The position numbers and the translations under genes are program-made. Positions 19,093 to 23,337 of a stretch of 64,000 nucleotides of DNA are shown piece after piece; position 1 is the stretch's first letter, and every line of letters begins with the position of its first letter. This DNA is from Paracoccaceae bacterium (lineage in GTDB: Bacteria > Pseudomonadota > Alphaproteobacteria > Rhodobacterales > Rhodobacteraceae). The notes under the pieces were generated by a model. That model was not told where the DNA came from, searched no databases, and saw only the letters and a program-made list of their open reading frames with translations. The DNA is taken from positions 62,001-126,000 of the forward strand of contig JANSYF010000001.1 of the NCBI GenBank assembly GCA_024742575.1, read 5' to 3'.

Positions 19093-19154
19093 AGATTGCA
19101 TCTCCCCTCGTCCAAGGCTACGTCCGATCCGAACACAGCAGACGAGGCACAGTG

Positions 19155-19862
19155 ATGGCGGCAGGGACCGCAATGTCAAGCTACTGGCGGGGCCTCCGGG
19201 ATGGGCTGCCCTTTTTGGCTGTCGTCGGCCCTTTTGCCATGCTCTTTGGCGTTCTCGCCACCGAAGCCGGGCTGGCCGTGCACGAGACCATGGGCTTTTC
19301 GATCGTGGTGATCGCAGGGGCCGCCCAATTCACCGCGCTGCAACTGATCAATGAAAACGCGCCAACGCTTGTGGTGCTCGCCTCGGCATTGGCCGTCAAT
19401 CTGCGCATGGCGATGTATTCCGCGTCGATCACCCCGCATCTGGGGCCGCTGCCGCTCTGGAAGCGCGGGATCGTGGCGTATTTCCTCGTCGATCAAACCT
19501 ATGCGCAATCTATTCTCGACTTCGAAAAGAACCTGGATCAGACCACGGCCGAGAAATTCGCCTACTTCCTTGGCGTGATGACACCGATCTGCCCGCCGTG
19601 GTATCTATTCACCTTCGTCGGCGCAGTTCTGGGCGAAAGCATCCCGCCCAGCCTCGGGCTTGATTTCGCCCTTCCCATCGCCTTTCTGGCCATGGTCGGC
19701 CCCATGCTTCGTACGCCCGCGCATCGGATAGCCGCCTTGGTGTCCGTGATCCTCGCGCTGGCCTTTGCCTGGCTGCCCTACAACATGGGCCTTCTCGTCG
19801 CCGGTCTGGGCGGCATGATGGCGGGTGCACAGGCCGAACTCCGTCTGGGGGTCAAACCGTGA
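19155..19862 (+). CDS. azlC: AzlC family branched-chain amino acid exporter, large subunit
   Basis: The 235-residue integral membrane protein has the AzlC hallmarks: GLPFLAVVGPFAMLFGVLATEAGL near the N-terminus, FSIVVIAGAAQFTALQL, and NLRMAMYSASITPHL. With AzlD it forms the two-subunit exporter for branched-chain amino acids or analogues. GAGG at 19144-19147 supports ATG 19155; GTG 19152 and ATG 19173 are alternatives. Its start lies 62 bases from the divergent fdhD start, so the promoters share one short region. Confidence 0.9.
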   Translation: MAAGTAMSSYWRGLRDGLPFLAVVGPFAMLFGVLATEAGLAVHETMGFSIVVIAGAAQFTALQLINENAPTLVVLASALAVNLRMAMYSASITPHLGPLPLWKRGIVAYFLVDQTYAQSILDFEKNLDQTTAEKFAYFLGVMTPICPPWYLFTFVGAVLGESIPPSLGLDFALPIAFLAMVGPMLRTPAHRIAALVSVILALAFAWLPYNMGLLVAGLGGMMAGAQAELRLGVKP

Positions 19863-20182
19863 CCGACACGACCGAGCTTTGGACCATCATCATCGCGCTT
19901 GGACTGGGCAGCTTCGGCCTGCGTTTTGCCTTCCTCGGGCTTGTGGGCGACCGCGCGATGCCCGAATGGCTGCTGCGGCACCTGCGCTATACGGCTGTTG
20001 CCGTGATCCCGGCTCTGGTCGCGCCGCTGGTGATCTGGCCCACTTCCACCGGCGGAGAGCCGGACGCCACCCGCCTTGCTGCTGCGGTTGCGACTTTTGC
20101 TGTGGGGTATCTGACAAAGAATGTGTTTGCGGCCATGGGTGTCGGCGCGGCTGTTCTGGTGTCGCTCAGCCTGCTGTTCTGA
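19859..20182 (+). CDS. azlD: AzlD family branched-chain amino acid exporter, small subunit
   Basis: The 107-residue protein has four hydrophobic segments. LRHLRYTAVAVIPALVAPLV is the conserved AzlD segment. The GTG start overlaps the azlC stop as GTGA, showing translational coupling, and the subunits are known to work together. The gene ends 6 bases before the convergent lipoprotein gene. Confidence 0.9.
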   Translation: MTDTTELWTIIIALGLGSFGLRFAFLGLVGDRAMPEWLLRHLRYTAVAVIPALVAPLVIWPTSTGGEPDATRLAAAVATFAVGYLTKNVFAAMGVGAAVLVSLSLLF

Positions 20183-21524: not shown

Positions 21525-21989
21525 CTAGATCGGCAAGGCCGTCGTTTCCTTGATCTCTTCCATAACGAAACTGGCCGAAATATCCGAGAGCGGAATCCGC
21601 GCGATCACGCGCTTGTAGAACGAATCGTAGGCTGGAACGTCCGCCACGCGGACCCGCAACAGGTAATCCAGATCCCCTGTCATCCGATAGGCACCGACCA
21701 CCTCGGGCATGGTGCGCACCGCCTTGTGAAAGCTGTCCAGCCAATCTGCGTCATGCCGCCCGGCGCGGATCATCACCATGACTTCCAGCGGACAGCCTAG
21801 CTTGGCCGGGTTTGCCAGCGCGACACGCCCGGTGATGATTCCGGACTGCTCCATCGCCTTGATCCGCCGCCAACAGGCATTGCGTGACAGGGCAACCTGA
21901 TCGGCGATGGTTTCGACACTGAGACTGGCATCGCGTTGCAGGATGCGCAGGATTGCCTTGTCGAATTGATCCAATTCAATCGAGTTCAT
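21525..21989 (-). CDS. Lrp/AsnC family transcriptional regulator
   Basis: The 154-residue regulator begins MNSIELDQFDKAILRILQRDASLS, followed by the helix-turn-helix ETIADQVALSRNACWRRIKAME. Residues 65-145 form the RAM ligand domain, with VGAYRMTGDLDYLLRVRVADVPAYDSF. Such proteins sense amino acids and assemble as dimers to octamers. The 181-base upstream gap contains a striking series of palindromes. Its target genes are unknown; azlCD, an amino-acid exporter 1.4 kb away, is a guess only. Confidence 0.92.
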   Translation of the reverse strand: MNSIELDQFDKAILRILQRDASLSVETIADQVALSRNACWRRIKAMEQSGIITGRVALANPAKLGCPLEVMVMIRAGRHDADWLDSFHKAVRTMPEVVGAYRMTGDLDYLLRVRVADVPAYDSFYKRVIARIPLSDISASFVMEEIKETTALPI

Positions 21990-22023
21990 GAGAATTTATC
22001 CCAATCCAACCGTGTTTTGACAA

Positions 22024-22151
22024 GTAACATGTTACGCTGGGGCCGTTTCCGTCAACGGAAACGCGCGATGCGTCGACGCATCGCATTCGGCGCATCTGTT
22101 AACAGAAGGTTAAAGGGTCCGAATCGGTCCCATTGTTTCGCGCGCGAAACA
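22024..22151. repeat. cluster of five palindromes upstream of the Lrp gene
   Basis: Five inverted repeats lie within 128 bases: GTAACATGTTAC (22024-22035), GTTTCCGT-CA-ACGGAAAC (22045-22062), the perfect 20-base GCGATGCGTCGACGCATCGC (22065-22084), CTGTTAACAG (22096-22105), and TGTTTCGCGCGCGAAACA (22134-22151). The last contains GTT-N4-GC-N4-AAC, which I recall as the centromere consensus of repABC replicons, although no replication genes are here. Function is unknown. Confidence 0.7.
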
Positions 22152-22170
22152 TTCCGACACGGACGCTGAC

Positions 22171-23337
22171 CTATTCGCCGGGTGGGGTCGCCAGCCGCAC
22201 CACCGGCATAGGGTCATCCTTGGCCAGTTCCTCGAAATCGAAATTATCAAGCCGCCGCGCCCTGCGCCCCGCCTTGTCGGCGCTGATCTTGATATCTGCG
22301 ATGTCCTTCGCCGCCTGCCCGAAATGCCGGTCTAGGTTTTCCACCCGGCTGCCCAGCCGATCGACATCAGCATAAAGCAGACCCAATTCCTTGCGAATGG
22401 CCCCCGCCTGTTCCTGCATCCGCGCATCCTTGAGGATCGCCCGCATCGTGTTCAGCGTCGCCATGCAGGTCGTCGGTGACACGATCCAGACCCGCGCCGC
22501 GAACCCGTCGCGCACCACCTCGGGAAAGTTGGCGTGCAGTTCGGCATAGACTGCCTCGGACGGCAGGAACATCAAGGCGCCATCGGCGGTTTCGCCTTCG
22601 ATGATGTATTTCTCGGAAATGTCTTTGATGTGCTTTCGCAGCGAAAGCCTAAGCTGTTGCGCCGCGCGGGTCAGCTGCTCTTGCGTCTCGGAACGGCGCA
22701 GTTGCTCATAAGCCTCCAGCGGAAACTTGCTGTCGATGGCAATCGGTCCCGGCGGGTTCGGCAGGTGGATCAGACAGTCCGCCCGTTTGCCGTTCGAAAG
22801 AGTCGCCTGCAGCGTATAGCTGTCCTTGGGCAGCGCTTTGCCGACGATATCCGTCAACTGGATTTCCCCGAACGCTCCGCGCGTCTGCTTGTTCGACAGA
22901 ATGTCCTGAAGCGACAGCACATCGCCCGACAGCTTGGTGATGTTCTCCTGCGCCTTGTCGATGCTCTGGAGCCGCTGTTGCAGATCCCCCAGCGATTGCG
23001 CCGTGCGCCGGGCCGAGCCGTGCAGGTTCTCGTTCATTTGCTCCTGCACCTGCGCCAGCCGCCGTTCCATCAGTTGCAGCATCGCGGTCTGGCTTTGCGC
23101 CTGCGCCTCGGACACATGCGACAGACCGCCGGACAGCCGTTCCTGCCCGTCACTCAGGTTTTGCACCCGCTGGCCGACTTGCGCCAGTTGGTAGACCAGA
23201 GGTTCGGAAAGTTTCGCAGCGCGACGGGCCGACAAAAGCGACATGATAAGCAGCACGAAAACCAGACCACCCAATGCCAAAGCCAGCAGGATGACCGGAT
23301 CGCTCAGGTCGAGGACAAGATCACCGATCTGGATCAT
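22171..23337 (-). CDS. rmuC: DNA recombination protein RmuC homologue
   Basis: The 388-residue protein begins with one membrane segment (residues 12-34), then a long coiled coil to about residue 130, then the RmuC nuclease-fold domain with [38 protein letters not shown] and [11 protein letters not shown]. RmuC limits DNA inversions in E. coli; the nuclease activity is predicted from fold, not proven. It overlaps mutL by 4 bases, so mismatch repair and this protein are expressed together. Confidence 0.9.

Follow-up and report, generated by a model that had tools for sequence, protein, structure and literature searches.

ParABS systems are normally regarded as private to their own replicon. Noc, by comparison, combines a ParB-family specificity with many binding sites dispersed over the chromosome. 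The parts of the literature available to us give the parS of repABC plasmids a broad consensus, GTTN4GCN4AAC, and a narrower one, GTTNNCNGCNGNNAAC (PMC9040568), and describe crtS of Vibrio cholerae as a single replication-control site (PMC13342612). In the literature we searched, there was no report of a plasmid ParB at chromosomal sites or of RepA-type centromeres, and neither the 18-mer described here nor its 14-bp core appeared. Here we describe a Marivita locus whose parS-like core is, judging from comparative sequence data, probably one of about 10–14 dispersed, mostly chromosomal sites for the ParB of RepA-type plasmids. The core would have the specificity expected for the ParB of these plasmids, the 'biofilm' plasmids of Rhodobacterales with an RPA initiator.

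The locus is a 181-bp gap between rmuC and an lrp-like gene, within a 64-kb window (the whole stretch of DNA that was analysed). A sequence-only reading had called five palindromes upstream of the Lrp gene. All five are present. The gap holds four perfect palindrome centres of at least 12 bp, whereas 300 approximate dinucleotide shuffles averaged 0.11 and never exceeded 2. The palindromes are real, yet they do not form a single unit (Table 1). CTGTTAACAG (22096–22105) overlaps TTAACAGAAGGTTAA and is part of the TTAA-N7-TTAA box, not a separate element; GTAACATGTTAC was found in only two (L001 and L002) of 12 aligned Marivita lrp loci. Searched against its own 3.49-Mb assembly, the gap proved to be composed of two dispersed repeat families, A (about 22098–22153; 11 loci) and B (about 22041–22084; 13 loci), with both counts including the window and obtained by grouping 30 match rows. 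Family B pairs a hairpin GTTTCCG-N-CGGAAAC with a second, adjoining one, GATGCGTCGACGCATC. Copies differ in the stem of the first, the order of the two goes either way, and the second hairpin, like several of the first, is centred on GTCGAC. We infer that family B is a REP-like element, and that the 20-bp palindrome and its neighbour are one REP-like two-hairpin repeat. For positions 21900–22300, Rfam returned zero matches and a sigma-70 promoter scan found no promoter. The window also contains azlC and azlD (19152–20182), genes for an exporter of branched-chain amino acids, which lie close to the Lrp-family gene and are a plausible target of its product.

Table 1. Features in and around the gap between rmuC and the lrp-like gene (window coordinates)
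Feature	Position	Strand	Evidence or remark
Lrp/AsnC-family regulator gene, 154 aa	21525–21989	-	PF01037, 5e-21
GTAACATGTTAC, 12-bp palindrome	22024–22035	.	Unconserved; probably unrelated to the other parts
REP-like repeat, hairpin 1, CGTTTCCGT-CA-ACGGAAACG	22044–22063	.	Dispersed family
REP-like repeat, hairpin 2, GCGATGCGTCGACGCATCGC	22065–22084	.	Dispersed family; perfect 20-bp palindrome
TTAA-N7-TTAA box TTAACAGAAGGTTAA (CtrA-type full site by motif)	22099–22113	.	Edge 20 bp from core
Inner flank module GGTCCG-AAT-CGGTCC, imperfect inverted repeat	22116–22130	.	Also found at other Marivita sites, both chromosomal and plasmid
parS-like core TGTTTCGCGCGCGAAACA, 18 bp	22134–22151	.	Dispersed copies; same core beside RepA-type parAB
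rmuC, 3' end adjoining core	22171–23337	-	PF02646, 7e-64

The core belongs to family A. Eleven dispersed sites in its own assembly fit TGTTTCGC-RY-GCGAAACA, nine of them exact copies and two with AC at the centre; the outer 16 bases are nearly invariant, and variation falls on the central dinucleotide. The exact 18-mer occurs in all 17 Marivita genomes, in 3–15 copies each, with none for the reversed-sequence control. Allowing up to two mismatches in five of these genomes yields 62 places, all varying in the central two bases only, while the reversed control at two mismatches gives one place, in G007. When 83 sites from eight genomes were grouped by their flanking DNA (with exact 18-mers as the only input for seven of the eight), they fell into 13 groups that are each common to 3–8 genomes, one plasmid group and four single-site groups. 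Because these sites had been found through the motif itself, the lrp loci were re-tested without motif selection, using 12 Marivita loci picked by their Lrp protein (a close orthologue is encoded in 12 of the 17 genomes). The core lies within 1.2 kb in all 12, with the outer 16 bases intact in 11 and a single change in the other, and is absent from the two nearest non-Marivita lrp loci. In an ungapped comparison of the lrp loci, the two outer halves of the core show pairwise identities of 1.00 and 0.98; the values fall to 0.82 and 0.51 over the neighbouring 25 bp and to about 0.39 farther out. A cluster arisen by chance, which the sequence-only reading had considered, is thus refuted for the core by orthologous regions and genome-wide frequency alike.

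Along the chromosome the sites are widely spread. The main contigs of G115 and G189 begin at a gene read as dnaA, and the sites span 69–3400 kb of 3654 kb in the first and 680–3299 kb of 3309 kb in the second. By eye, site strand relative to replication follows no pattern in G115, G189 or Dinoroseobacter (D.) shibae, and in the last the GC skew, sampled in 20 stretches of 12 kb, was too noisy for origin or terminus to be located.

Several other genera have the core next to genes for ParA and ParB, at times in clusters. On the named plasmids that carry it, the modules are RepA-type, with an RPA initiator (PF10134), a ParA ATPase and a ParB with a weak PF02195 match, and polysaccharide genes are often present as well. 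The core was found exactly (centre ignored) near parB in 15 of 18 RepA-type plasmid stretches. Of the 18, 17 have an annotated initiator protein A; the class of the remaining one, R. litoralis pRLO149_63, was assigned from its ParB. The exceptions to the exact core are R. faecimaris with one mismatch, T. gelatinovora with two and pRLO149_63 with a more distant variant. No exact core occurs in eight stretches of other types (three RepB-type, four DnaA-like and one RepABC); both sets were hand-picked from match lists, and some type labels of the eight are our own. Sulfitobacter sp. D7 p4SUD7 and D. shibae pDSHI02, both with RPA (PF10134), carry the same core as the window site. On RepA-type plasmids it sits beside parAB, a position from which it would be a functional parS, whereas the window family consists of single copies dispersed among chromosomal genes. 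The window core is not located at a replication or partition module, and tblastn with RepA-type ParA, ParB and RepA produced no match at E ≤ 1e-3, either in the window or at the 10 other site loci of the same assembly.

These plasmids bear on two suggestions of the sequence-only reading, a partition-like site and a fit to a repABC-type centromere. The first gains support from the RepA-type plasmid core, but the class is not repABC. The core resembles repABC parS in spacing and in the outer GTT/AAC and fits the broad consensus; the narrower one, as it stands in the available part of the source, is not shared and fails at positions 6 and 11. A match to RepB (PF07506) is present in 12 of the 17 Marivita genomes and absent from the window's own genome, G000 (incomplete), and from G001, G004, G006 and G016, all of which have sites. 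A repABC site was rejected: the core departs from the narrower published consensus, and no RepB was found in its own genome.

Several other arrangements of the core or of similar sites were noted. In Leisingera caerulea, a RepA plasmid carries a 58-bp perfect palindrome made up of the core and GGTCCG arms (L341, 6820–6877). A 664-kb contig of G031, possibly an integrated plasmid or chromid, carries a RepA-type parB with five cores packed into about 500 bp (L396, 5002–5502). In Tritonibacter horizontis a pair of elements, separated by 41 bp, lies in a stretch with parA and parB matches as well (L240, 2634–2692). On a RepB-type plasmid, GGTTTCGC-RY-GCGAAACC, with GGTTTC ends, occurs four times around parAB (L406, 2492–5159). 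It is the core with a changed outer base pair, which suggests how specificity may differ between plasmid types. Near parAB, DnaA-like plasmids (L408–L410) repeat palindromes with CCCCGCGGGG at the centre, which may be a parS of their own.

Plasmid and chromosomal sites also vary together. In seven genomes with a RepA-type ParB, in which the core was enumerated with any centre, the commonest centre beside parB is the commonest elsewhere in the genome in all seven cases (1 in 210 by permutation): GC in G006 (8/11), G132 (8/8) and G031 (4/5), AT in G008 (6/9) and D. shibae (7/14), and AC in G115 (10/10) and G189 (10/10). Some points weigh on the other side. AT accounts for only half of the 14 chromosomal centres of D. 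shibae, the others being four AC/GT and three GC, and part of the contigs scored as elsewhere in G132 may be of plasmid origin (C2 carries a further ParB relative). The plasmid stretch of G015 has one GC site and one AC site; for this genome and for G010 the search covered the exact 18-mer alone, and both are outside the count of seven. Chromosomal flanks vary between lineages, and the plasmid sites of G189 lack the chromosomal flank.

A common core, its place beside plasmid parAB, orthologous conservation and centre co-variation are the observations behind our assignment to RepA-type ParB, together with shared flanks in two lineages (D. shibae and Marivita) and a CtrA-type box at a fixed distance. 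Mechanistically, a RepA-type ParB would bind the chromosomal cores and load there as on the plasmid. Such loading would tie the plasmid ParA/ParB machinery to the nucleoid, with plasmid–chromosome co-segregation or a Noc-like spatial role as the outcome, and CtrA on the adjoining box could modulate the action of ParB. Put at its broadest, the proposal is that several Roseobacter lineages have recruited the partition protein of a widespread biofilm plasmid to conserved, CtrA-gated, centromere-like chromosomal sites, so that plasmid machinery organises or co-segregates the chromosome and the sites co-evolve. This extension is possible but somewhat doubtful, and we offer it tentatively.

Of 82 Marivita sites, 41 have a TTAA-N7-TTAA box no more than 60 bp away (42 boxes in all), a count that leaves out the window site, which is also boxed, and in which orthologous sites are non-independent. 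From box edge to core, the distance is exactly 20 bp for 26 of the 42 boxes and exactly 22 bp for nine. As background, the flanking DNA, coding sequence included, has 11 boxes in 496 kb. The box in the gap is the only one in the 64-kb window. For D. shibae, the available part of PMC4046655 takes TTAA-N7-TTAAC as the CtrA consensus; in the window the base after TTAA-N7-TTAA is A instead of the consensus C, and the assignment to a CtrA-type full site is one of motif. With a CtrA-type box and a parS-like core at one locus, the earlier notion of a multi-protein binding region looks partly right, again by motif.

A box kept at a fixed distance from the core speaks for a chromosomal regulator and raises an alternative in which the chromosomal sites are read by a chromosomal protein, perhaps with CtrA, while RepA-type plasmids use the same or a converged sequence. 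A full-length RepA-type ParB was found at E < 1e-140 in six of the 17 Marivita genomes, and G002 has two weaker relatives. In 10 of the 17, sites persist and a full-length RepA-type ParB was not found. The absence says little for the window's own assembly (87% complete), because its chromosomal ParB and canonical parS are missing too, but G007, another of the ten, is listed as 100% complete, which leaves room for a separate chromosomal reader. Against such a reader, a ParB_N scan of 10 Marivita genomes revealed no protein besides chromosomal ParB that looks common. The core does not fit the chromosomal parS motif, TGTTTCACGTGAAACA clustered near parB; in 15 of the 17 genomes canonical parS, a different 16-mer, forms a separate cluster of 2–3 copies packed into about 2 kb. 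Nor is co-variation of plasmid and chromosomal centres expected if a chromosomal protein reads the sites, and we consider this explanation unlikely.

The flanks raise a different question, namely whether the core is simply part of a dispersed repeat, MITE- or REP-like or plasmid debris, that was copied around and kept as hairpin DNA or RNA with no role for a protein. At most Marivita sites, imperfect inverted repeats, GGTC[CA]G...C[GT]GACC, border the core on one side or on both. Their fifth-position pair is complementary in 116 of 131 framed modules, compared with 83 in shuffles, while complementarity of the other two variable arm pairs is not above shuffles. Marivita plasmid sites carry the same GGTC modules as chromosomal ones. 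D. shibae has 14 chromosomal sites and one plasmid site; the pDSHI02 site shares tens of flank bases with the chromosomal elements, and a flank word recurs in 14 of 14. The extended flank held in common in D. shibae, the inverted-repeat modules with their one co-varying pair and the REP-like family alongside would all suit a repeat. Yet the core stays constant while the flanks change between lineages, its outer bases being 98–100% identical at the lrp loci where flanks fall to about 39% beyond 25 bp in the ungapped comparison, and its variation within two mismatches is limited to the centre. A repeat without a reader is therefore very unlikely to account for the sites.

Extra parS copies cause incompatibility, and chromosomal cores could accordingly be decoys that destabilise incoming RepA-type plasmids, as their persistence in plasmid-negative genomes would allow. 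The distribution across genera speaks against this. The core, with any centre, is present in 42 of the 198 genera sampled, with at least nine copies in seven, and a RepA-type ParB matches at E ≤ 1e-90 in 52 of the 198. The core is found in 35 of these 52 genera and in 7 of the 146 others (Fisher p = 3e-19), and all six non-Marivita genomes with at least nine sites fall among the 52, so that sites and RepA-type ParB occur together in 6 of 6 without mutual exclusion. We give the decoy explanation very little credence. Seventeen of the 52 genera have no core at all, which means that ParB alone does not predict the core and that many relatives of RepA-type ParB must use other sites.

Gene context completes the picture. 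Of the 13 Marivita site positions, 12 lie outside mechanically called ORFs and, by the same ORFs, five are divergent, four convergent and four tandem, a mixture that, with the mostly intergenic placement, argues against promoter-by-promoter control. Across six genera, 18 of 62 sites lie inside such an ORF, although many of these ORFs are probably spurious. In four genomes (L391, L204, L254 and L083), a position common across genera places the core in frame within a putative dihydroorotase gene or close to its start, where it encodes ..FR[AT]RNI.... At the window locus the constant neighbour is rmuC, which adjoins the core in all eight Marivita loci tested. The proposal that the palindromes are autoregulatory operators of Lrp, or a transcription terminator, has in its favour their location upstream of lrp and two terminator-like matches against 0.5 expected, but it carries almost no weight, because the core accompanies rmuC and not lrp, staying in place where open frames of 73 aa, or of 75 and 283 aa, separate lrp from it (L011 and L012) and where the 6-kb stretch has no lrp (L169 in G015 and L180 in G014), and because the 13 positions are so mixed in orientation.

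If the assignment to RepA-type ParB is right, a protein that segregates plasmids also serves the chromosome, plasmid carriage could alter how the nucleoid is organised or how the cell cycle runs, and CtrA may be connected to that protein. How chromids and Noc-like systems arose would then become testable in a laboratory model, D. shibae. Among described systems, crtS is alike, going by its description in the part of the source available, in being a primary-chromosome sequence linked to a secondary replicon, and differs in that it is one site controlling replication whereas the cores are multiple and dispersed. With Noc, the core set has in common both a ParB-family specificity and dispersed chromosomal sites; what distinguishes it is that its candidate reader is a plasmid ParB and that its sites number only 10–14.
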